Positions 4,213 to 64,000 of a DNA stretch of 64,000 nt are shown piece by piece (within the stretch, counting starts at the first letter, position 1; each line of letters begins with the position of its first letter). The stretch is from Rhodoferax sp. (GTDB taxonomy: Bacteria; Pseudomonadota; Gammaproteobacteria; Burkholderiales; Burkholderiaceae_C): positions 1 to 64,000 of the forward strand of contig NZ_JAQURE010000012.1 of NCBI RefSeq assembly GCF_028715765.1, read 5' to 3'. Both the position numbers and the translations under genes were made by a program. A model generated the notes under the pieces. The model was given only the letters and a program-made list of their open reading frames with translations, was not told the DNA's origin and did no database searches.

Positions 4213-5040
4213 TTATTGAGGCACCGCTGCACCCGCTTGGCGCATGGCACCAATGTGGCCGCGCAAGTCGTGCACGATGTCGCTGAATGCCGAGGTGTAG
4301 GTCACTTCCAGCTCACGCGGGCGGGGCAGGTCAATCTCGCGCTTGACCACAAATCGACCCGGGCTCTTGCTCATCACATACACCGTGTCGGCCAGAAACA
4401 CGCTCTCGCGCAGGTCGTGTGTGACCAGAATCACGTTGAACTGCTGCTCGGTCCACAGGTCACGCAAGATGCACCAAAGTTCTTCACGGGTGAACGCATC
4501 CAGCGCACCAAAGGGCTCATCCAGCAGCAGCATCTTGGGTTCGTGAATCAGCGCGCGGCAGATGCTGGCGCGCTGCTGCATGCCGCCCGAGAGTTGCCAG
4601 GGGAATTTGTCTTCATAGCCAGCCAGACCCACTTTTTGCAGCAAAGCTCTGGCGCGTGCTTCGTATGCCTTGCGTTGAACCTTGAAATTGCTGCGGTAGG
4701 GTTCCACAATTTCCAGCGGCAGCAGCACGTTGTCGACCGTGGTGCGCCAGGGCAGCAAGGACGAGGCCTGAAACGCCATGCCACTGATCTTCAGCGGCCC
4801 GGTGACGGGTTGCTGGTTGATGTGGATGCGCCCCATCGAGGGCATCTTCAGGCCAGTGGCCAACTTCATGAAAGTGGACTTGCCGCAGCCTGAAGGCCCG
4901 ACGATGGCGATGAACTCACCTTGTCGCACCTTCAGGTCGATGGCCTCTACAGCGAACTGGTTTTGTGCCAGCAACGCGTCGTTGTAGGCCAGCCAAACGT
5001 CCGAGAAGTCGACAAACCACGGGGTTGGGGCGTGTTGCAT
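4213..5040 (-). CDS. ABC transporter ATP-binding protein, NitT/TauT family
   Basis: Walker A GPSGCGKST, LSGGMQQR signature, Walker B LLLDEPFGALD. Confidence 0.9.
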   Translation of the reverse strand: MQHAPTPWFVDFSDVWLAYNDALLAQNQFAVEAIDLKVRQGEFIAIVGPSGCGKSTFMKLATGLKMPSMGRIHINQQPVTGPLKISGMAFQASSLLPWRTTVDNVLLPLEIVEPYRSNFKVQRKAYEARARALLQKVGLAGYEDKFPWQLSGGMQQRASICRALIHEPKMLLLDEPFGALDAFTREELWCILRDLWTEQQFNVILVTHDLRESVFLADTVYVMSKSPGRFVVKREIDLPRPRELEVTYTSAFSDIVHDLRGHIGAMRQAGAAVPQ

Positions 5041-5056
5041 TTTTATATAAGAAATT

Positions 5057-5094
5057 GGCCTCTAGAGCTTACAGAATAAGCGCTAGTAGCTATT
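5057..5094 (-). repeat. Dispersed palindromic repeat (family A), intergenic
   Basis: RC reads AATAGCTACTAGCGCTTATTCTGTAAGCTCTAGAGGCC, matches family A consensus. Confidence 0.85.
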
Positions 5095-5115
5095 AAAAAC
5101 AGATCAATTTGCGGC

Positions 5116-6144
5116 TCACTTTTTGGGCAAGATATCCAGTGCGGCCTTAGCCGGCAAAAAGCTGTCGTTCCAGACCGCTTCCGGGTTGACCCGGGTTTTG
5201 GTGTTGAACGCGTCCGACACTTGGCTGGCCATCAGCGACAGGCGAGAGCCGTTAACCTGACCAAACCCCTCAGCGCGGGCGCTGGGGCTGTTGATGGCGG
5301 TGTCAATGGCGAGTTGCAGGCGGCGCGTTTCGAGTGCCACATTGACGATGCCGTCACGCGCCTTCACGTCGGCAATGGCTGCCGCCGGATTCGCCATGAC
5401 CTCTTTGGCGCCCTTGGCAAAAGCCGTCAAAAAGGCTTTGATGGCCGCCGGATGTTCCTTGACCATTTTGGGTGAAGCAATGATCACATTGCCGTACAGC
5501 TTGACCCCATAGGCAGGGTAGGGCAGCACCACCACGTCGTCCGCCTTCACGCCACGCGCTTCCAGGTTCAGCAGCGAGGTGAAGGTGAAGCCGGTGATGG
5601 CATCCACGTCGCCACGCACCAGCATGGTTTCGCGCAGCGGCGGGTCCATGGCCGTCCAGGCCACGTTGGTGATGGCGTTGGCTTTGGCAAAAATGGGGAA
5701 CGCCTTGCGGCCTGCGTCGAACACCGGGGCACCGAGTTTTTTGCCGCTCAGGTCGGCTGGGGTTTTGATGCCGGATTTTTTCAGAGTCATGACCGAGGCG
5801 GGGGTGTTGTTGTAGACCACCATCACCGCCACGGGTTTGTTTGGCGCGTCGGGGTTGTTGGCATGGAACTCCATCAGCGCGGCCAGGTCGGCAAACCCCA
5901 TGTCGTAGGCGCCCGAGGCCACCCGCGTGACGGTGCCACCTGAGCCGTTGCCCGCGTCTACGCTCACGTCCAGCTTGGCTTCTTTGAAATAGCCCTTGGC
6001 GGCAGGGGTCAGAAACAGCGCGGCTGGCCCCTCAAAGCGCCAGTCGAGCTGGAATTTGATTGGTGTGACTTGCGCGTGAGCCAAAACACCCGCAGAGATG
6101 CCAACCAGAAACACTGCAGATTGAAGAAAGGTACGCTTGAACAT
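5116..6144 (-). CDS. ABC transporter substrate-binding protein (NMT1/THI5-like)
   Basis: Signal peptide and KFQLDWRFEGPAALF...; adjacent to cognate ABC genes. Confidence 0.85.
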   Translation of the reverse strand: MFKRTFLQSAVFLVGISAGVLAHAQVTPIKFQLDWRFEGPAALFLTPAAKGYFKEAKLDVSVDAGNGSGGTVTRVASGAYDMGFADLAALMEFHANNPDAPNKPVAVMVVYNNTPASVMTLKKSGIKTPADLSGKKLGAPVFDAGRKAFPIFAKANAITNVAWTAMDPPLRETMLVRGDVDAITGFTFTSLLNLEARGVKADDVVVLPYPAYGVKLYGNVIIASPKMVKEHPAAIKAFLTAFAKGAKEVMANPAAAIADVKARDGIVNVALETRRLQLAIDTAINSPSARAEGFGQVNGSRLSLMASQVSDAFNTKTRVNPEAVWNDSFLPAKAALDILPKK

Positions 6145-21585: not shown

Positions 21586-23157
21586 ATGCTCAAAAGACTC
21601 CTTTCAATTACTACGCTTTTTATAGCTACTAGCGCATATTCCATAAGCGCTAGCGATGTAAAAAGCATCACACTCGGCGAAACCGACGCGCGTATCGAGG
21701 CGCTGGCCCAAGCCATGCAGGCAGCCGATGACCAGACTGCTGCCTTTCTGCAAGCCTTGTCTGACGATGCCGTCAAAGTCGCCGGAGAGCAGGTGTTGGT
21801 GGTGAAAGACGACAAGGCTTTTGATGCAGTCACCGGGGCTGAAATCCCCCTGCCTGAGGCGCTCGAAGACGTGATCAACAACAACCGCATGCGCGGTGAA
21901 ATTGACTCGGCACTGGCCGCGCTCAAGCTCTTTTCCAAAGACGACACCGTGCGTGCCGCCGCGGTGAAACAACTGCAAAGTGATGCGGACGAAACCAAAC
22001 TGCCGCTGATCGAAAAAGCCCTGGCCACCGAGCAAAACGCCGCCATCAAAGACCAACTGGGCATGGTGCGTGCCGCCGCCTTGCTCAATAGCACAGACAA
22101 AACCAAACGCCTGGAAGCCGCCAAACTGCTGGCCAGCAGCGGCCAGGCCAACACCAAAACCATGCTGTTGGCGCGCCTTGAGCAAGAGCCTGACGCACAA
22201 GTTAAAGCCGCTCTGGGCGCGGCACTGCGCCAGGTGGAAGCTGCCCTGGCCTGGGGTGACCGGCTGGGAGCCTTGTTCAGCGGCATCAGCCTGGGCTCGA
22301 TCCTGCTGCTGGTGGCGCTGGGCCTGGCCATCACCTACGGGCTGATGGGCGTGATCAACATGGCGCACGGCGAGCTGATGATGATTGGCGCCTATGCGAC
22401 CTATGTGGTGCAAGGCCTGTTTCAAAAATACCTGCCCGGCGCGTTTGACTGGTATTTGCTGGCGGCGGTGCCGGTGGCGTTCATGGCATCCGCCCTGATG
22501 GGAGCGGCGCTGGAGCGCAGTGTGATCCGCTTTTTGTATGGCCGCCCGCTGGAAACCCTGCTGGCCACCTGGGGCATCAGCTTGATGCTGATGCAGTTGG
22601 TGCGCAGCATTTTTGGTGCCCAAAACGTGGGGGTGGAAAACCCGTCGTGGATGAGTGGTGGCGTGCAGGTGCTTGGCAATTTGTCGCTGCCCTACAACCG
22701 CTTGGTCATCATTGGTTTTGCCCTGTTTGTGCTGGGCAGCGTGGCCTGGATGATTGGCAAGACACGGCTGGGGCTGTTCGTGCGCGGGGTCACGCAAAAC
22801 CGCCCGATTGCCTCGTGCATGGGGGTGAACACGGCGCGCATTGACACCTACGCCTTCGCGTTGGGCTCTGGCATTGCCGGGCTGGCGGGTTGCGCCTTGA
22901 GCCAGGTGGGCAACGTGGGGCCAGACCTGGGCCAGGGCTACATCGTCGATGCCTTCATGGTGGTGGTGCTGGGCGGTGTGGGGCAGTTGGCGGGCACGGT
23001 CTACGCCGCGTTGGGGCTGGGCATTTTGAACAAGTTTCTGGAGGGGTTGACCGGTGCGGTATTGGCCAAGATTGCGGTGCTGGTGTTCATCATCATCTTC
23101 ATTCAAAAACGACCCCAAGGCATCTTCGCCATGAAAGGCCGCTCGGCGGAGGCATGA
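21586..23157 (+). CDS. urtB: Urea ABC transporter permease UrtB with N-terminal periplasmic domain
   Basis: Signal peptide MLKRLLSITTLFIATSAYSISAS; HEAT-like N-terminus; GLMGVINMAHGELMMIGAYATYV. Confidence 0.95.
   Translation: MLKRLLSITTLFIATSAYSISASDVKSITLGETDARIEALAQAMQAADDQTAAFLQALSDDAVKVAGEQVLVVKDDKAFDAVTGAEIPLPEALEDVINNNRMRGEIDSALAALKLFSKDDTVRAAAVKQLQSDADETKLPLIEKALATEQNAAIKDQLGMVRAAALLNSTDKTKRLEAAKLLASSGQANTKTMLLARLEQEPDAQVKAALGAALRQVEAALAWGDRLGALFSGISLGSILLLVALGLAITYGLMGVINMAHGELMMIGAYATYVVQGLFQKYLPGAFDWYLLAAVPVAFMASALMGAALERSVIRFLYGRPLETLLATWGISLMLMQLVRSIFGAQNVGVENPSWMSGGVQVLGNLSLPYNRLVIIGFALFVLGSVAWMIGKTRLGLFVRGVTQNRPIASCMGVNTARIDTYAFALGSGIAGLAGCALSQVGNVGPDLGQGYIVDAFMVVVLGGVGQLAGTVYAALGLGILNKFLEGLTGAVLAKIAVLVFIIIFIQKRPQGIFAMKGRSAEA
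21615..21651 (+). repeat. Family A repeat encoding the UrtB signal peptide
   Basis: TTTTTATAGCTACTAGCGCATATTCCATAAGCGCTAGCG. Confidence 0.85.
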
Positions 23158-54064: not shown

Positions 54065-54288
54065 CTAATAACTCATATTTAAATAGCTACTAGCGCATAT
54101 CCCATAAGCGCTAGAGCCCTGTTTCTTACAAAACTCTGACTCGTGCCGCAGCGCTTCAATGGGGTCTAGCCGGGCGGCGCGGCGGGCTGGGAAGTAGCCA
54201 AACGACACGTCCATCACCCGCGCCAAATCCACCGAGGCCAGGGTGGCCAGGGCAATGCCAATGACCCCGCCCAGCGCTGATAGCACCA
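54065..54288 (-). pseudogene. Partial, internally deleted duplicate of the macB-like 3' end
   Basis: VVLSALGGVIGIALATLASV-LARVMDV...FGYFPARRAARLDPIEALRHES matches 54991-56193 gene; lacks ~24 internal residues. Confidence 0.85.
54083..54118 (+). repeat. Family A repeat (in duplicated block, copy 1)
   Basis: ATAGCTACTAGCGCATATCCCATAAGCGCTAGAGCC. Confidence 0.85.
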
Positions 54289-54351
54289 TCTCGCGCCAGC
54301 ACGCCAATTTGTGCGGCTTGCCTCATTGCGATTCATAAATACAATGTACGT

Positions 54352-54858
54352 ATGATCAAGTTCGAATGGGATGAACCCAAAGCCATTGCAAATCTCAAAA
54401 AACATCAAGTGTCTTTTGAAGAAGCGAAATCGATTTTCTTCGACGAATTTGGCATTCAGTTCTTCGATCAGGATCATTCAACTGACGAGGAGCGTTTCCT
54501 GATGCTTGGCATGAGCTCGGCGGCAAAGTTGCTTATCGTTTGTCACTGCGAGCGCGAGCATGGTGCAGTTATTCGCATCATCTCAGCACGCAAGGCGACC
54601 AAGCGCGAAAGCGCGTTTTATCTAGGTGAACACATGAAAGCCGAATACGACCTTTCCAAACTAAAGTCCCGCAAGAATCCGTACGCGTCCAAGCTGAAAA
54701 AGCCTGTGACGATGCGCCTTTCAGGGGATGTTGTGGATTATTTCAAGGGAATGGCCGATGAATCTGGCGTTCCGTATCAGAGTCTGATTAACCTGTACCT
54801 GCGCGACTGTCTTGCCAACAGTCGAAAGGTGCAAATTCATTGGCCACAAACTGTTTAA
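54352..54858 (+). CDS. Fused BrnT-BrnA toxin-antitoxin protein (single ORF)
   Basis: N-terminal BrnT-like FEWDEPKAIANLKKHQVSFEEAKSIFFDEF...RIISARKATKRESAFY; C-terminal BrnA-like MKAEYDLSKLKSRKNPYASKLKKPVTMRLSGDVVDYFKGMADESGVPYQSLINLYLRDC. Confidence 0.85.
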   Translation: MIKFEWDEPKAIANLKKHQVSFEEAKSIFFDEFGIQFFDQDHSTDEERFLMLGMSSAAKLLIVCHCEREHGAVIRIISARKATKRESAFYLGEHMKAEYDLSKLKSRKNPYASKLKKPVTMRLSGDVVDYFKGMADESGVPYQSLINLYLRDCLANSRKVQIHWPQTV

Positions 54859-54937
54859 CAGTTGGGTCGATACGGACATGCAGCAGAAGGAGACCGTTGC
54901 GCGGCTGGCATTGGCAACGTTAATTACTCACATTTAA

Positions 54938-54979
54938 ATAGCTACTAGCGCATATCCCATAAGCGATAGAGCCCTATTT
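54938..54979 (+). repeat. Family A repeat (in duplicated block, copy 2), just 3' of macB-like gene
   Basis: ATAGCTACTAGCGCATATCCCATAAGCGATAGAGCCCTATTTC. Confidence 0.85.
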
Positions 54980-54990
54980 CTCATAAACTC

Positions 54991-56193
54991 TCACTCGTGC
55001 CGCAGCGCCTCAATGGGGTCTAGGCGAGCGGCGCGGCGGGCTGGGAAGTAGCCAAACAGCACGCCAATACCGGCCGAGAACACAAATGCCAGCGCGTTAA
55101 TGCCCGCATCAAACACAAACGGCACGTCCATCACCCGCGCCAGCCCCACCGAGGCCAGGGTGGCCAGGGCAATGCCAATGACCCCGCCCAGCGCCGACAG
55201 CACCACGGCTTCTATCAAAAACTGCAGCAGCACCTCGCGCTCCAGCGCGCCAATGGCCAGGCGCAGGCCGATCTCGCGGGTGCGCTCGGTCACGCTCACC
55301 AGCATGATGTTCATGATGCCAATGCCACCCACCAGCAGGCTCACTGCCGCCACCGCGCCCAGCAGCGTGGTCATGACCTTGGTGGTGCTGGAAAACGCCT
55401 CACCGAGCTGCTTGGTGTCGAGCACATTGAAGTTGTCTTCGTCACTCTCCGCCAGCTTGCGGCGCTCGCGCAGCAGCTGGGTGATGGCGGCTTTGACGCG
55501 CTCAGGCTCAGCCCCGTCTTGCATCGACACCAGCAAGGTGTTGACCCGGGTGTTGCCGGTAATGCGTCGTTGCAGCGTGTTGATGGGCATCAACACCACG
55601 TCGTCTTGGTCGTTGCCAAACGCGCCTTGGCCTTTGGAGCCCAGCACGCCAATGACTTCACAGCTGATCTGCTTCACGCGCATGGCCGCGCCCACCGCCG
55701 CTTGGCTGCCAAACAGTTCGCGGCGCACGGTTTCACCAATCAGGCACACGGCCGAGCCTGCCATTTGCTCCTCAAGCGTGAAGACGCGGCCGTCGGCCAC
55801 TTTCCAGTTGCCGGTGGTCAGCCAGGCTTGCGTGCTGCCGATCACGCTGCTGCTCCAGTTGCGCCCATCAAGCACCAGTGTGGCGCCACTGCGCGCCTCA
55901 GGTGCCACCGCCAGCAGGCTGCTGACTTGGGTGGACACAGCCACCGCGTCAGCCGCTTTGAAGGCGGGTGCGCCACCGCCACCGCCCATCATGCGTTGGC
56001 CAGGGCGCACCTGCAGCAAATTGGTGCCCAGGCCAGAGATTTGGTTTTGAATGGCCAGCGTGGCACCGTTGCCCACAGTGACCATGGTGATGACGGCGCT
56101 GACGCCAATCACGATGCCCAAAATGGTTAAAAACGAGCGCAGCAAGTTGCGCCGGATCGAGCGCATGGCCAACAGCAGGGTACTTAGCCACAT
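54991..56193 (-). CDS. MacB-like ABC transporter permease
   Basis: RRNLLRSFLTILGIVIGVSAVITMVTVGNG; GVLFGYFPARRAARLDPIEALRHE. Confidence 0.9.
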   Translation of the reverse strand: MWLSTLLLAMRSIRRNLLRSFLTILGIVIGVSAVITMVTVGNGATLAIQNQISGLGTNLLQVRPGQRMMGGGGGAPAFKAADAVAVSTQVSSLLAVAPEARSGATLVLDGRNWSSSVIGSTQAWLTTGNWKVADGRVFTLEEQMAGSAVCLIGETVRRELFGSQAAVGAAMRVKQISCEVIGVLGSKGQGAFGNDQDDVVLMPINTLQRRITGNTRVNTLLVSMQDGAEPERVKAAITQLLRERRKLAESDEDNFNVLDTKQLGEAFSSTTKVMTTLLGAVAAVSLLVGGIGIMNIMLVSVTERTREIGLRLAIGALEREVLLQFLIEAVVLSALGGVIGIALATLASVGLARVMDVPFVFDAGINALAFVFSAGIGVLFGYFPARRAARLDPIEALRHE

Positions 56194-56194
56194 G

Positions 56195-56935
56195 TCAAAC
56201 CCCCTCCGTGGCCGGTGCTTGCTGCAGCGCAGCAGGGTGCGGGTTGGGGCTGTCGCTGTGCACCACACCGTCAACAAAATGCACGATGCGCTTGGCGTAG
56301 GCGGCCATGTCAGCCTCGTGGGTGACCATCAGCACGGTGATGCCGTGATCCACATTGAGCCGCCACAGCAGCTCCATGATTTCATGGCTGCGGTGGGTGT
56401 CCAGATTGCCGGTGGGCTCGTCGGCCAGCAGCACGGTGGGCTCGGTGACGATGGCGCGGGCAATGGCCACGCGCTGCTGTTGCCCGCCTGAGAGCTCGGC
56501 CGGGGTGTGGTGCTCCCAGCCCGCCAGGCCGACCGAAGCCAGGGCTTTTTTGGCCGCGCTGTGGCGGGTGGCGGTGGGCTCGCCGCGGTAGAGCAGCGGC
56601 AGCTCCACATTTTCTTGGGCGCTGGTGCGTGCCAGCAGGTTAAAGCCCTGAAACACAAACCCCAGGTAGCGCCGGCGCAGCAGGGCGCGCTCGTCGCGGC
56701 TGAGGTTTTCCACATGCAAGCCGTTGAACACATAGGCGCCAGAGCTGGGTGTGTCTAGCAGCCCCAGGGTGTTCATGGCGGTGGACTTGCCCGAGCCACT
56801 GGGCCCCATGATGGCCACAAATTCACCCGCGTTGATGCGCAGGTTGACCCCGTTGAGGGCTTGAAATGCGGTGCTGCCTTGGCCGTAGGTTTTGGTCACG
56901 GCCTGCAGTTCGATCAAGGGCGCGGGTGTGCTCAT
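56195..56935 (-). CDS. ABC transporter ATP-binding protein (MacB/LolD type)
   Basis: [50 protein letters not shown]. Confidence 0.92.
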
Positions 56936-58245
56936 GGCTTTTTGGCCGCGCTGGCGGCGCCCGCGGCGGCGGTGGCAGAGCGCTGGTCGGTGATGACGGC
57001 CATGCCTTCTTGCAAATCACCGCCGGTGATTTCGGTCATACGCCCGTCTGAGATGCCCGGTGTGACGCTGACCTCCACCGGCGCGCCGTCGCGCAGCACC
57101 CACACGTGCTTGGCGGTGCCGCCGCTGGCTTTTTTGGTGGCACGGGGCATGCGCGGCATGACGCTGGACATGATGTCGCTGCCGCCCTTGGCTTTGGCGG
57201 CACCCGCGTTGGGTGGGCTAAAGCGCAGGGCGGTGTTGGGCACCAACAGCACGTCTTTGCGCTCCACGGCAATGATGCTGCTGGTGGCCGTCATGCCTGG
57301 GCGCAGGCTCAAGTCGTCGTTGTTGACGTCAAGCAGCGTGGGGTAGGTGACCACGTTGTCGGTCAGGGTGGAGCCAAAGGCCACGCGCGTGATGGCTGCC
57401 GGAAAGCGCCGCCCGGGGAACGCGCTGACGGTAAAGCTGGCTTTCTGGCCGAGCGCAACGCGCCCCACATCGGCCTCGTCCACATTCACTTGCAGGCGCA
57501 TGTGGCGCAGGTTTTCAGCCACGGTAAACAGCGTGACCGCTTGCAACGAGGCCGCCACTGCGTTGCCCGGGTCGACCGTGCGGGTCAGCACCACGCCGTC
57601 TATGGGGGAGCGAATCGAGCCTTTGGACAGGTTGGTTTCATCGGTGGCCAGACTGGCGCGGGCAGAGTCGACGTTGGCCCGGGCGCTGAGTTCGGCCGCC
57701 ATGGCGCGCTCGGCGGCGGCGCGGGCGGTGTCAAGCTCGGTTTTAGACGGCACTTTGCCGCCCGAGAGCTTGGCCACTTCTTCCAGCCGCGCCAGGTTGG
57801 CTTGGCTTTCTTTGATGGTTGAGACGGCCTGCGCCAGCTGGGCATTGGCGCTGGCCAGTGCGGCGCGTGAGCGGGTCACCTGGTCGCTGAGTTTGGAGGT
57901 GTCTAGCTCCACCATCACCTGGCCTTTTTTGACCTGGTCATTCACATCCACCAGCACCCGCCGCACCGTGCCTGAGAGCTCGCTGCCAATGTTGACCGAG
58001 CGCGTGGGCTGCAGGGTGCCATTGGCTGTGACGACCAGCGTGAGGTTGCCTTTGGCCGCCGCTTCAGTGACATACACAGGCGCGGCATTTTTGAGCTTGT
58101 TTTGCTGCCAAGCGTAGTATCCATAAGCGCTAGCAGCTATTAAAAAAAGAGTTGCCCAGAGCTTTTTCTGACGCCACCAAGGCTGCTTGGTGGGCAGTTG
58201 CAGCAGGGTTTGCAGGTCTTTGGGGGGGCTGGTGTCAGTGCTCAT
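56932..58245 (-). CDS. HlyD/MacA-type periplasmic adaptor
   Basis: GNLTLVVTANGTLQPTRSVNIGSELSGTVRRVLVDVNDQVKKGQVMVELD. Confidence 0.92.
   Translation of the reverse strand: MSTDTSPPKDLQTLLQLPTKQPWWRQKKLWATLFLIAASAYGYYAWQQNKLKNAAPVYVTEAAAKGNLTLVVTANGTLQPTRSVNIGSELSGTVRRVLVDVNDQVKKGQVMVELDTSKLSDQVTRSRAALASANAQLAQAVSTIKESQANLARLEEVAKLSGGKVPSKTELDTARAAAERAMAAELSARANVDSARASLATDETNLSKGSIRSPIDGVVLTRTVDPGNAVAASLQAVTLFTVAENLRHMRLQVNVDEADVGRVALGQKASFTVSAFPGRRFPAAITRVAFGSTLTDNVVTYPTLLDVNNDDLSLRPGMTATSSIIAVERKDVLLVPNTALRFSPPNAGAAKAKGGSDIMSSVMPRMPRATKKASGGTAKHVWVLRDGAPVEVSVTPGISDGRMTEITGGDLQEGMAVITDQRSATAAAGAASAAKKP
58111..58142 (-). repeat. Family A repeat encoding the MacA-like N-terminal TM anchor
   Basis: RC TAATAGCTGCTAGCGCTTATGGATACTACGCT = LIAASAYGYYA. 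Confidence 0.75.
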
Positions 58246-59841: not shown

Positions 59842-61362
59842 TCAGTGGGCCGGGCTGGCGCCACCACCGATCACCTTGAACAGCTGCACCTGGTTTTGCA
59901 GATACGCCAGGCGGCTTTGCACGGCGCTTTGCTGGGCGGCAAACAGGCTGCGCTGGGCGTCCAGGGCGTCGAGCTGGCTGGCGGCGCCGTGGGTCAGGCG
60001 CAGTTGGGTCAAGGCATGGCGCTGGGTTTCGGCAGCCAGCAGGGCTTGGCTGGCTTGCACTTGCTGGGCCAGGCTGGCGCGGCTGGCCAGCGCATCGGCC
60101 ACTTCGCGGAACGCGGTTTGAATGGCTTTGTCGTACTGGGCCAAGGCCACGTCGCGCGCTACTTGGGCGGCTTGCAGGTTGGACTGGTTGCGCCCGGCAT
60201 CAAAAATGGGCAGCACCAGCTGGGGAGCCAGGGTCCAGCCCCAAGAGCCCGCGGTGAACAAATTGGCCAGCGCGCTGCTGGCCGAACCCACCCCAGCGGT
60301 CAGGCTGATGCGCGGGAAAAATGCCGCCCGGGCGGCGTCAATGTTGGCGTGGCTGGCTTGGAGCAGCAGCTCGGCCTGGCGAATGTCGGGGCGGCGGGTC
60401 AGCACGGCAGAGGGCAAGCCTGGGGGCAGTTCAGCCAGCTGCAGTTGGCTCAAACGGGTTGCGCCCAAAGCCAAAGCCGTGACGCCACCCGCAGCGGGTG
60501 CGGCCATGGCCGGTGCACTGGCCGGTGAAGCTGCAGCTGCGGCCAGCGCTTGTTGGGCGGGCGCGGGCAGGGCTTGACCCAGCAGCAGCACCAGGGTGTT
60601 TTCGTCCAGGGCGCGCTGGCGGATTTGCTGGGCGTGTGTCACACGGGTGGCCTCTAGCAGGGTTTGCGCCAGCTGGCGGTCTAGCTCTGAAGCGGCACCG
60701 TGCTGGAATTTAAGCTCAATCAGCTTGAGCGACTGCGCCCGGGTGTCGAGCGTCTGGCGGGTCACACCCAGCAGCTCTTCGTCAGCCAGCAAGGCCAGCC
60801 AGCTTTGTGCCACTGTGGCCAGCAAACTGATGCGTGCGGTGTGCGCCGCTTCGGTGCTGGCCAAATACTGCGCCAAGGCCTGCGCTTTGAGGCTGTTGAC
60901 CCGGCCAAAAAAGTCCAGCTCGTAGGCCGTGACCAGCAGCCCGCCCGTATATGCGCTGTTGATGCTGCCTGCGCTGCTGGGGCTGCGCGAGCCGCTCACA
61001 CTGGCGTTGACCGTAGGCCACTGGTCGGCTTGGCGCAAGCCCAGCTGTGCTTGCGCTTGCAGCGTGCCCAGCGTGGCCAGGCGCAGGTCGCGGTTGTGCT
61101 GCAGGGCGGTTTCTAGCAACTGGCGCAAGGTGGGGTCAGTGAAATAGGTCTGCCAATCGAGTGTTCCGCCTTGCGGCGCTGGTGCAAGGCGGAGCTGGGG
61201 AGTGGCTTGCGGGCTGGCTTGCGCCGACTCAGGCCACTGCGCCGCAACCGCTTGTGCGTCTGCCTTGGCAGGGGCGTTGTCGGTGGGAAACTGGCTGCAA
61301 GAAGATGTAAAAAGCATAGCTGCTAAAGCAGTCAGCGTAAGCGCTAGAGGCCTAAAAAGCAT
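59842..61362 (-). CDS. NodT-family outer-membrane efflux lipoprotein (2)
   Basis: MLFRPLALTLTALAAMLFTSSCSQF lipobox; DWQTYFTDPTLRQLLETALQHNRDLRLA. Confidence 0.9.
   Translation of the reverse strand: MLFRPLALTLTALAAMLFTSSCSQFPTDNAPAKADAQAVAAQWPESAQASPQATPQLRLAPAPQGGTLDWQTYFTDPTLRQLLETALQHNRDLRLATLGTLQAQAQLGLRQADQWPTVNASVSGSRSPSSAGSINSAYTGGLLVTAYELDFFGRVNSLKAQALAQYLASTEAAHTARISLLATVAQSWLALLADEELLGVTRQTLDTRAQSLKLIELKFQHGAASELDRQLAQTLLEATRVTHAQQIRQRALDENTLVLLLGQALPAPAQQALAAAAASPASAPAMAAPAAGGVTALALGATRLSQLQLAELPPGLPSAVLTRRPDIRQAELLLQASHANIDAARAAFFPRISLTAGVGSASSALANLFTAGSWGWTLAPQLVLPIFDAGRNQSNLQAAQVARDVALAQYDKAIQTAFREVADALASRASLAQQVQASQALLAAETQRHALTQLRLTHGAASQLDALDAQRSLFAAQQSAVQSRLAYLQNQVQLFKVIGGGASPAH
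61316..61362 (+). repeat. Family A repeat encoding the NodT-like signal peptide
   Basis: ATAGCTGCTAAAGCAGTCAGCGTAAGCGCTAGAGGCCTAAAAAGCAT. Confidence 0.7.
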
Positions 61363-61489
61363 AAATTTTTTACCATGAAATGCAGTGTATTGTGCGGCGC
61401 GGGTCAAAGCAGCGCCAGGTTGTAAATGCGCCCCAACCCGCGCCAGGCGAACGGTTGCACGGCTCGGGCTGGCGTTGTGTTCACCAAAT

Positions 61490-64000
61490 TTAGTCATGGC
61501 CGTGCACTCCCATGTGAGCGGCTTGTTCGGCGTGGACGGCTTGTTGGCGGGCACTGTCTTTGAACAGGCTGCGCACCACCACAAAGAAGATGGGCACAAA
61601 CACCACTGCCAGCGTGGTGCCGGTCAAGATGCCACCAATCACCCCGGTGCCAATGGCGCGCTGGCTGGCCGAGCCGGCGCCGCTGGCCAGGGCCAGTGGC
61701 AGCACGCCCAGCGTGAAGGCCAGCGAGGTCATCAAAATCGGCCTGAACCGCAGGTGCGCCGCTTCCAACGCGGCAGCCACCACGCTCTTGCCTTGGGCTT
61801 GCAGGTCTTTGGCAAACTCAATGATCAAAATGGCGTTTTTGGCTGATAGGCCAATGATGGTGATCAGGCCGACCTGAAAGTACACGTCGTTGGCGTAAGC
61901 CCGTAACAGCGTGGCCACAATCACGCCCAGCACGCCCAGCGGCACCACCAGAATGACTGCCAGCGGAATGCTCCAGCTCTCGTACAGCGCGGCCAGGCAC
62001 AAAAATACCGACAAGATGGCAAAGCCGTACAGGATGAGGGCTTGTGAGCCCGCCAATTTTTCCTCGCGCGAGGTGCCGGTCCACTCAAAGCCAAAGCCCG
62101 GTGGCAGTTGGCGCGCCAGGGTTTCTATTTCGGCCAGCGCTGCGCCGGTGCTGTAGCCAGGCGCGGCACTGCCGCTGATGCGCATGGCCGGGTAGCCGTT
62201 GTAGCGCACGGTTTGCATGGCACCACTGACCCAGCGGGTGCTGGCAAAGCTTGCGAAGGGCACCATTTGGCCGGTTTTGTTGGCCACGAAGAGTTTCAGC
62301 AAGTCATCGGGCTGCATGCGTGCCGGGGCATCGGCTTGCACCACCACGCGCTGCAAGCGCCCGGCGTTGGGGAAATCATTGGCATAGCTGGAGCCCAAGG
62401 CGGTGGAGAGGGTGGCATTGATGGTGTCAAACCCCACACCCAAGGCGCTGGCTTTGTCGCGGTCAATGTCGACTTGCAGCTGGGGTGCGTCTTCCAGGCC
62501 ATCGGGGCGCACTTGCGCCAGGACTTTGCTTTGGCTGGCCATGCCCAGCAGTTGGTTGCGTGCCCCGAGCAAGGCCGCGTGTCCCAAGCCGGCCCGGTCT
62601 TGCAGGCGCAGGGCAAAGCCAGACGAAGAGCCCAGCTCTGGAATGGGCGGTGGGCTCAAGGGGAAGATGAAAGCATCGCGCACGCCCATCAGCGCACCAA
62701 AAGCACGCCCCGCCAGGGCTTGGGCTGAACTGCCGGGGCCCGGGCGTTCGGCCCAGTCTTTCAGGGTGACAAATGCCAGCGCGGCGTTTTGCCCCTGGCC
62801 CGAGAAGCTAAAGCCCAGCACGCTGACCATGCCTTGCACCTCGGGCTGTTTGAGCATGAAGCCCTCTACCTGCTGCATCACGGCCAGCGTGCGTTCGCGC
62901 GTGGCGCCGGGGGGCAGTTGCACGTTGACCAGCATGGTGCCTTGGTCTTCGCTGGGCAAAAATGAGGTGGGCAGGCGTTGGTACATCCAGGCCGCGCCGG
63001 CCAAAATGGCCAAGTAAATCACCATGTAGCGCCCCGCCTTGGGTAACAGCTTGGCGATCCCACCTTCATAGCCCTTGGCCGTTTTGGCAAAACCGCGGTT
63101 GAACCAGCCAAAAAAGCCAGACTTGGCGTGGTGGTGACCCGCTTCTACGGGCTTGAGCAAGGTGGCGCACAAGGCCGGTGTGAGTGACAAGGCCAAGAAG
63201 GCCGAGAACGCAATTGCCACGCCCATCACGGTGGCAAACTGGCGATAGATGTTGCCAATGGAGCCGCTGAAAAACGCCAGCGGCACAAACACCGAGACCA
63301 GCACCACCGTCACGCCCACAATGGCGCCCTGAATCTGCCCCATGGCTTTGCGCGTGGCCGCCAGCGGTGGCAGGCCTTCTTCGCTCATGATGCGCTCAAC
63401 GTTTTCCACCACCACAATGGCGTCGTCCACCACAATGCCGATCACCAGCACCATGGCAAACATGGTCAGCACGTTGATGGAGTAGCCCAGAGCCAGCAGT
63501 GTGGCAAAGGTGCCCAGCAAGGCCACCGGCACCACCAGCGTGGGAATGAGCGTGTAGCGCCAGTCTTGCATGAACAAAAACATCACCAAAAACACCAGCA
63601 GAACAGCTTCCAGCAGTGTCTCGGCGACCTGACGCAAAGAGGTTTCAATGAAGCGCGAGCTGTCGTAGGGAATGGCCCAGGTCATGCCTTTGGGAAAGAA
63701 TTTTTCCAGCTCGGTCATGCGCGCCCGCACCGCTTTGGCGGTGGCCAGGGCGTTGCCGCTGGGGGCCAGCTGCACGCCAATGCCGGTAGAGGGCTTGCCG
63801 TTGAGCCGCGCCGAGGTGGCATAGGACTGGGCACCGAGTTCAATGCGCGCCACGTCTTTCAAGCGCACGGCCGAGCCGTCGGTGTTGGCGCGCAGCACCA
63901 CTTGGCCAAATTCGGCTACGCTGCCCAATTGCCCGTTGACCACCACGGTGGCTGCAATGCCTTGGCCAGCTACATTGGGCAAGCTGCCAATTTCACCCGC
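61490..64000 (-). CDS. RND multidrug efflux permease (HAE1/AcrB family); 5' end outside window
   Basis: GIVVDDAIVVVENVERIMSEEGLPPLAATRKAM; LSAKNAILIIEFAKDLQAQGKS. Confidence 0.93.
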   Translation of the reverse strand, partial: AGEIGSLPNVAGQGIAATVVVNGQLGSVAEFGQVVLRANTDGSAVRLKDVARIELGAQSYATSARLNGKPSTGIGVQLAPSGNALATAKAVRARMTELEKFFPKGMTWAIPYDSSRFIETSLRQVAETLLEAVLLVFLVMFLFMQDWRYTLIPTLVVPVALLGTFATLLALGYSINVLTMFAMVLVIGIVVDDAIVVVENVERIMSEEGLPPLAATRKAMGQIQGAIVGVTVVLVSVFVPLAFFSGSIGNIYRQFATVMGVAIAFSAFLALSLTPALCATLLKPVEAGHHHAKSGFFGWFNRGFAKTAKGYEGGIAKLLPKAGRYMVIYLAILAGAAWMYQRLPTSFLPSEDQGTMLVNVQLPPGATRERTLAVMQQVEGFMLKQPEVQGMVSVLGFSFSGQGQNAALAFVTLKDWAERPGPGSSAQALAGRAFGALMGVRDAFIFPLSPPPIPELGSSSGFALRLQDRAGLGHAALLGARNQLLGMASQSKVLAQVRPDGLEDAPQLQVDIDRDKASALGVGFDTINATLSTALGSSYANDFPNAGRLQRVVVQADAPARMQPDDLLKLFVANKTGQMVPFASFASTRWVSGAMQTVRYNGYPAMRISGSAAPGYSTGAALAEIETLARQLPPGFGFEWTGTSREEKLAGSQALILYGFAILSVFLCLAALYESWSIPLAVILVVPLGVLGVIVATLLRAYANDVYFQVGLITIIGLSAKNAILIIEFAKDLQAQGKSVVAAALEAAHLRFRPILMTSLAFTLGVLPLALASGAGSASQRAIGTGVIGGILTGTTLAVVFVPIFFVVVRSLFKDSARQQAVHAEQAAHMGVHGHD

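Follow-up and report, generated by a model that had tools for sequence, protein, structure and literature searches.

Can a dispersed palindromic repeat become the export signal of a conserved protein, and can the change be traced through related genomes? The question arises in the window, a 64,000-nt stretch of contig C12 in the draft genome G000 (3.41 Mb), in which the initial annotation had derived the lipoprotein signal peptide of a NodT-like protein from a repeat copy. The operon and its signal peptide comprise the following features.

59842–61362, minus strand: outer-membrane efflux channel of the NodT/OprM type, predicted lipoprotein, 506 aa counted from ATG61362
61490–63982, minus strand: RND permease of the AcrB/MexB type, upstream gene of the same operon, continuing beyond the window edge
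61297–61362, minus strand: short-form signal peptide MLFRPLALTLTALAAMLFTSS with lipobox Cys22 (translation; Cys codon 61297–61299)
61316–61374, minus strand: repeat copy encoding the n-region and hydrophobic core of the signal peptide, 31.7 bits

The channel protein matches Pfam OEP (E 3.5e-45; 154.6 bits, cut-off 22) and belongs to TIGR01845 (297 bits, curated cut-off 210). The RND permease lies directly upstream of it (PF00873, 954 bits; TIGR00915, 1243 bits), as expected for an RND-efflux operon. The channel signal peptide, MLFRPLALTLTALAAMLFTSSC, is encoded on the minus strand, from 61362 to 61297. By a simple lipobox and hydropathy rule, applied in place of SignalP, the short form falls in the lipoprotein class, with a positive n-region, a hydrophobic core, a lipobox Cys and a mean hydropathy of 1.93. 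The lipobox of the window gene, FTSSC, is weaker and less canonical than the IAGC of orthologs. The repeat-derived peptide is predicted to act in export and in lipidation at Cys22.

The repeat family and its match to the channel gene

A palindrome pattern allowing at most two mismatches finds 139 matches in the 3.41 Mb genome (both strands counted), and the reversed pattern finds none. An iterated profile, run over 1.23 Mb of the 3.41 Mb, recovers 191 copies, with no match in a reversed-genome control. The consensus is ~60 nt long (TTATATGacAAATaGGCCTCTAGCGCTTATgaAAtAAGCGTAAGCAGCTATTaATTTtATAGCA) and begins with a weakly conserved, AT-rich head (TTATATGAC AAATAGGCC...); the usual coding frame of the family reads xPLALxxxAQAAIxFIA. 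Two typical copies in the window serve for comparison.

5031–5096, plus strand: typical repeat copy, 55.0 bits
38954–39018, minus strand: typical intergenic repeat copy, 57.1 bits, also present in genome G125

The copy at 61316–61374 attains its score (E 1.1e-7) against the iterated profile trained without this copy, and scores 19.4 bits (E 4e-5) against a small profile made from ten of the other copies in the window. When the peptide is synonymously recoded with the codon usage of the genome, none of 20,000 recodings reaches 25 bits and the best reaches 16.1 bits, indicating that the nucleotide sequence itself, beyond the peptide it encodes, resembles the repeat. AT-weighted codons bring 2 of 20,000 recodings to 31.7 bits; taken by itself, the copy is therefore strong evidence but falls short of proof. 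ATG61362 aligns with an ATG in the weakly conserved head of the repeat.

The AT-weighted recodings bear on the possibility of convergence, whereby Leu/Ala-rich signal peptides written in AT-rich codons come to resemble the repeat by chance, with no common descent. Two other genes lend this some weight. Among the orthologs of a UrtB-like permease, one and the same peptide motif ranges by degrees from no match up to 32 bits. A MacA-like gene (56932–58245), at first a candidate for a second repeat-encoded membrane segment with a match of 25.6 bits, was rejected: the large profile gives it 14.6 bits, the peptide persists in orthologs that lack the repeat, and the match is probably due to chance. 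On the other side stand the genome-usage recodings and the empty reversed-genome control, together with the orthologs of the channel described below.

By our own gene calls, made with a home-made hexamer gene finder, 76 of the 191 copies lie inside predicted genes, 97 between genes and 18 at gene edges. The conserved genes with copies include those for YidC, PutA/proline dehydrogenase, E2/dihydrolipoyl acyltransferases, a CheA-like protein and a CysN-like protein. The family thus resembles REPs in being a short palindrome with many dispersed copies, but departs from them in that ~40% of the sampled copies are intragenic and in that the consensus (CTAGCGCTTAT...AAGCAGCTAT) has no GTAG tag at its head. 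It resembles Rickettsia palindromic elements (RPEs) in its in-frame occurrence within conserved genes, without the insertion relative to orthologs, which was seen neither in YidC and SCO1 nor at the orthologous loci. The genome encodes a single Y1_Tnp protein (G000 C23:38184–38510, L211) resembling REP-associated tyrosine transposases, at 79.3 bits just under the REP_Tyr_transpos cut-off of 80, and one repeat copy lies just behind its stop codon. Of 301 sampled genomes of the bacterial family, 65 contain one or more pattern matches; the repeat is found in other genera as well, and Rfam gave no match.

Two local arrangements of copies were also observed. At 54065–55205 of the window, two copies 855 nt apart and 91% alike lie in an apparent tandem duplication of a permease gene fragment. 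Elsewhere in the genome (G000 C2:61600–61665), a pantothenate synthetase-like gene (MKIITTVTELR...) apparently has its start codon in the tail of a copy (AGCTATGAAAATTATC) that is also present in G125.

The repeat among channel orthologs

We scored 37 orthologs and outgroups of the channel with the same profile. The repeat occurs at the same site and in the same frame in ten same-genus orthologs (L141, L142, L143, L145, L146, L147, L155, L157, L161 and L166), with scores of 16.4–45.4 bits, and a weak match of 13.7 bits is present in L156. The 26 others have no match to this profile at the channel site; orthologs lacking a detectable copy still have signal peptides. In the best-preserved copy, that of L141 (45.4 bits), the match extends over profile positions 9–74 and includes both head and tail. 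The L141 peptide MSNFYKTFKPLALNTLAQAAIIFIAGC begins immediately behind the start codon and reaches the lipobox, where IA of IAGC is the last part encoded by the repeat tail (..AGCAGCTATTATTTTTATAGC).

The convergence of Leu/Ala-rich peptides accords poorly with a match of such extent in L141, nor does it accord with the concentration of carriers in genomes that have the repeat family. L141, L143 and L161 already refute it to a large degree, and we consider it highly unlikely. The signal-peptide DNA of the channel gene is a copy of the dispersed palindromic repeat family. The derivation put forward in the initial annotation is thus borne out by a profile match without self-training, by the recoding control and by retention in orthologs, and the coordinates given there are right to within about 12–26 nt.

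The length of the segment is constant: the distance from the start codon to the lipobox Cys is 27 codons in every intact carrier. L159, L160, L165 and L169 have no detectable repeat, yet they have the same 27 codons and end in ...ALA(A)ITFLAGC-like sequences, which is what a repeat-bearing signal peptide would leave after erosion. On the ortholog tree the repeat label needs 5 changes, against 9.7 with shuffled labels, and the starred branches force at least two changes. This distribution fits one old gain followed by several losses; the tree alone is no proof of a single origin. In genome G149 the channel gene (L155) retains the repeat, with no match to the 35-nt core pattern elsewhere in that genome; the N-terminal sequence of L155 is that of L032, from Rhodoferax sp. 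Kmv23. As a separate observation, ACG replaces the start ATG in L143 (G171), which also has an in-frame TAG with the repeat still present, and this gene is probably decaying.

Judged from these sequence comparisons, the repeat in the channel gene is an old inherited domestication in part of the genus, not a recent accident. Beyond the DNA match, the orthologous conservation and the constancy of length, we infer that the repeat was there before it took on the signal peptide function. It is quite probable that the repeat was recruited as the channel signal peptide in an ancestor within the genus, and was then inherited and eroded. In the proposed course of events, a REP-like repeat of ~60 nt would have been present in, or have moved into, the segment of an RND-efflux channel gene that separates start codon and lipobox, in a Rhodoferax-like ancestor. 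Read in the usual frame of the family, it would have supplied the hydrophobic core of a lipoprotein signal peptide; in L141, it would also have given the first residues of the lipobox, with host DNA giving GC. The repeat would then have been passed on at a constant 27 codons, its likeness to the family being slowly lost in many descendants.

How the repeat entered the gene is a further matter. Recruitment by insertion has against it that no ortholog offers a clean empty site and that the insertion itself is unseen. In addition, coding copies in the YidC linker and in the SCO1 signal peptide are present without any change in length relative to repeat-free orthologs, allowing for sequence change in place. 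The motif might accordingly be copied onto existing coding sequence, through gene conversion or through biased uptake recombination, in the manner of DNA uptake sequences and with no net insertion; copies within genes as well as between them would fit, as would the absence of clean empty sites, coding sites included, among 32 orthologous loci compared with G125. Nevertheless, 25 of the 32 loci found in both genomes have copies at orthologous sites, indicating that most copies are old and that insertion events are not seen, and old shared sites explain the missing empty sites equally well. Moreover, the element, at ~60 nt and with modest conservation per position, is far longer than known uptake sequences, and it is REP-like in a genome with a gene resembling those of REP-associated tyrosine transposases and a copy just downstream of that gene. 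We therefore regard spread by overwriting as unlikely and retain recruitment of the repeat in an ancestor within the genus as the preferred reading.

The start codon of the channel and the 120-nt insertion

The initial annotation had placed the start codon itself in the repeat flank. Four further features bear on this point.

61495–61497, minus strand: ancestral start ATG overlapping the RND stop (ATGACTAA), at a position conserved in orthologs
61507–61511, minus strand: Shine-Dalgarno-like GGGAG before the ancestral start, conserved in orthologs
61360–61362, minus strand: candidate start ATG in the AT-rich repeat head, equivalent to internal Met6 in four orthologs
61363–61482, minus strand: 120-nt insertion, in frame and stop-free, found by alignment with six orthologs and only in the window genome

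In intact repeat-bearing orthologs, the start ATG overlaps the RND stop (CATGAATAA or CATGAGTAA) behind GGGAG and lies upstream of the repeat, and ATG61362 corresponds to internal codon 6 (Met) of L145, L146, L157 and L166. The 120-nt insertion separates the ancestral ATG from the repeat-encoded signal peptide. No second copy of the insertion was found in its own genome, a search of 90 same-genus genomes gave only short weak matches, none convincing, and plasmids gave no match; we therefore rejected the idea that it is a repeat or mobile sequence of a known kind. Read in frame, it has a coding score of −0.1, higher than in the other frames but lower than the 5% quantile for pieces of real genes (median 34.5).

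Because the in-frame insertion lies between the two candidate starts, either could be used in the window genome. The later insertion would have parted the ancestral start from the signal peptide, so that translation would now begin at ATG61497, adding an N-terminal extension of 45 residues, or at ATG61362 in the repeat head. If the repeat created the start codon, the protein would be made from ATG61362 on that account. Such a start lies in the repeat head, and the resulting short form has a normal lipoprotein signal of 21 residues; the long form, by contrast, does not pass the simple lipoprotein rule, and the insertion scores below 95% of gene pieces as coding sequence. Weighing the other way, the start of the orthologs lies further upstream, the window genome preserves the ancestral ATG and GGGAG, the insertion is in frame and stop-free, and no good Shine-Dalgarno sequence precedes ATG61362 (CATGGTAAAAAATTTATG). 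We consider a repeat-made start a serious possibility, against which we lean slightly.

A start codon within the repeat flank is possible only for the window genome, and the placement in the initial annotation is not established. The annotation had also taken an upstream start with a distinct signal sequence as grounds against the derivation; this does not apply here, as the upstream start, if used, would keep the repeat-derived core and the lipobox.

Other repeat-encoded signal peptides and comparison with known systems

The channel is one of several exported proteins with a copy at the N terminus. In a DUF4136-like predicted lipoprotein (gene 5040–5648, minus strand), the entire signal peptide MKNMPLELMKYAQAAILTIAFTLTGC is a repeat copy (G000 C9:5600–5661, L226:5600–5661; 53.7 bits). 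The signal peptide of a SCO1/SenC lipoprotein (gene 134250–134870, minus strand) is likewise a copy (G000 C2:134787–134834, L186; 31.2 bits), in the orientation opposite to that in the channel, and its orthologs L298 and L315 score 41.6 and 37.8 bits. The UrtB-like branched-chain-type ABC permease gene (21586–23157, plus strand), with orthologs L270 and L264 at 29.5 and 26.4 bits, has a partial copy in the window.

21619–21653, minus strand: partial repeat copy in the UrtB-like signal peptide, MLKRLLSITTLFIATSAYSISA, 32.7 bits (this copy was in training)

Further N-terminal copies in signal peptides occur in TctC and, in G125, in a small periplasmic protein (MKNWHLALMGLAATAIFTIANGA). Copies are used in both orientations, the channel having one and SCO1 and UrtB the other. 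By the simple rule, five of the eight N-terminal copies considered in real G000 genes are signal peptides, against a base rate of 16% under that rule (p 0.004), a post hoc count over eight self-chosen cases, with only a partial match in UrtB, that gives a lead rather than a result. The initial annotation had proposed that, owing to palindromic symmetry, either strand would yield a hydrophobic peptide. The intergenic copies lend this no support, since 48 of them give 10 hydrophobic open frames, against about 8.5 in shuffled sequence, and signal peptides may simply tolerate the repeat well. We consider it slightly less likely than not that the repeat is a recurrent source of signal peptides, serving unrelated exported proteins (the channel, the DUF4136-like lipoprotein, SCO1, UrtB, TctC and the small periplasmic protein of G125) in both orientations, some of these outliving the loss of the family from the genome.

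A selfish-type bacterial repeat would here have become a functional export signal in a conserved gene, traceable across at least ten species. With its many coding copies and sequenced relatives, the family offers a system for how dispersed repeats replace signal peptides, which tolerate change, and for whether repeats enter genes by insertion or by overwriting.

A literature search of partial coverage found no earlier description of the family. The betaproteobacterial repeat BRE (PMC3110155) likewise has some copies in coding sequences, four of its copies being in Rhodoferax ferrireducens; it is about 90 bp long, 69% GC in Bordetella and often tandem, and from this description we judge it to be different. 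Intragenic REPs of the GTAG and CGTC superfamilies (PMC3733652) are, like the element here, short palindromes, some of them in genes and with a RAYT in some hosts, whereas the element here is longer and its consensus has no GTAG head tag. The same paper warns that N-terminal REP copies may reflect mis-annotated starts; in the channel, by contrast, the ortholog starts lie upstream of the repeat. RPEs and their Wolbachia equivalents (Ogata 2000, 2005, as cited in PMC2229807 and PMC3733652) are, as described in the citing papers, also in-frame palindromes in conserved genes and intergenic; they are 105–146 bp long and seen as inserts, whereas the repeat here is shorter, occurs in Comamonadaceae and shows no net insertion at the sites examined. 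The precedent of Yersinia RU-2/YPAL in YPO1552 (Delihas 2007, PMC2759123; review PMC2229807) involves an element of 168 bp, against ~60 nt here, and a hypothetical protein in two nearly identical species, against a conserved efflux-channel family in at least ten species and a lipoprotein signal. Precedents mostly concern single genomes or hypothetical proteins; the novelty here lies in the conservation of the target gene, in the many species that retain the repeat and in the lipoprotein signal.
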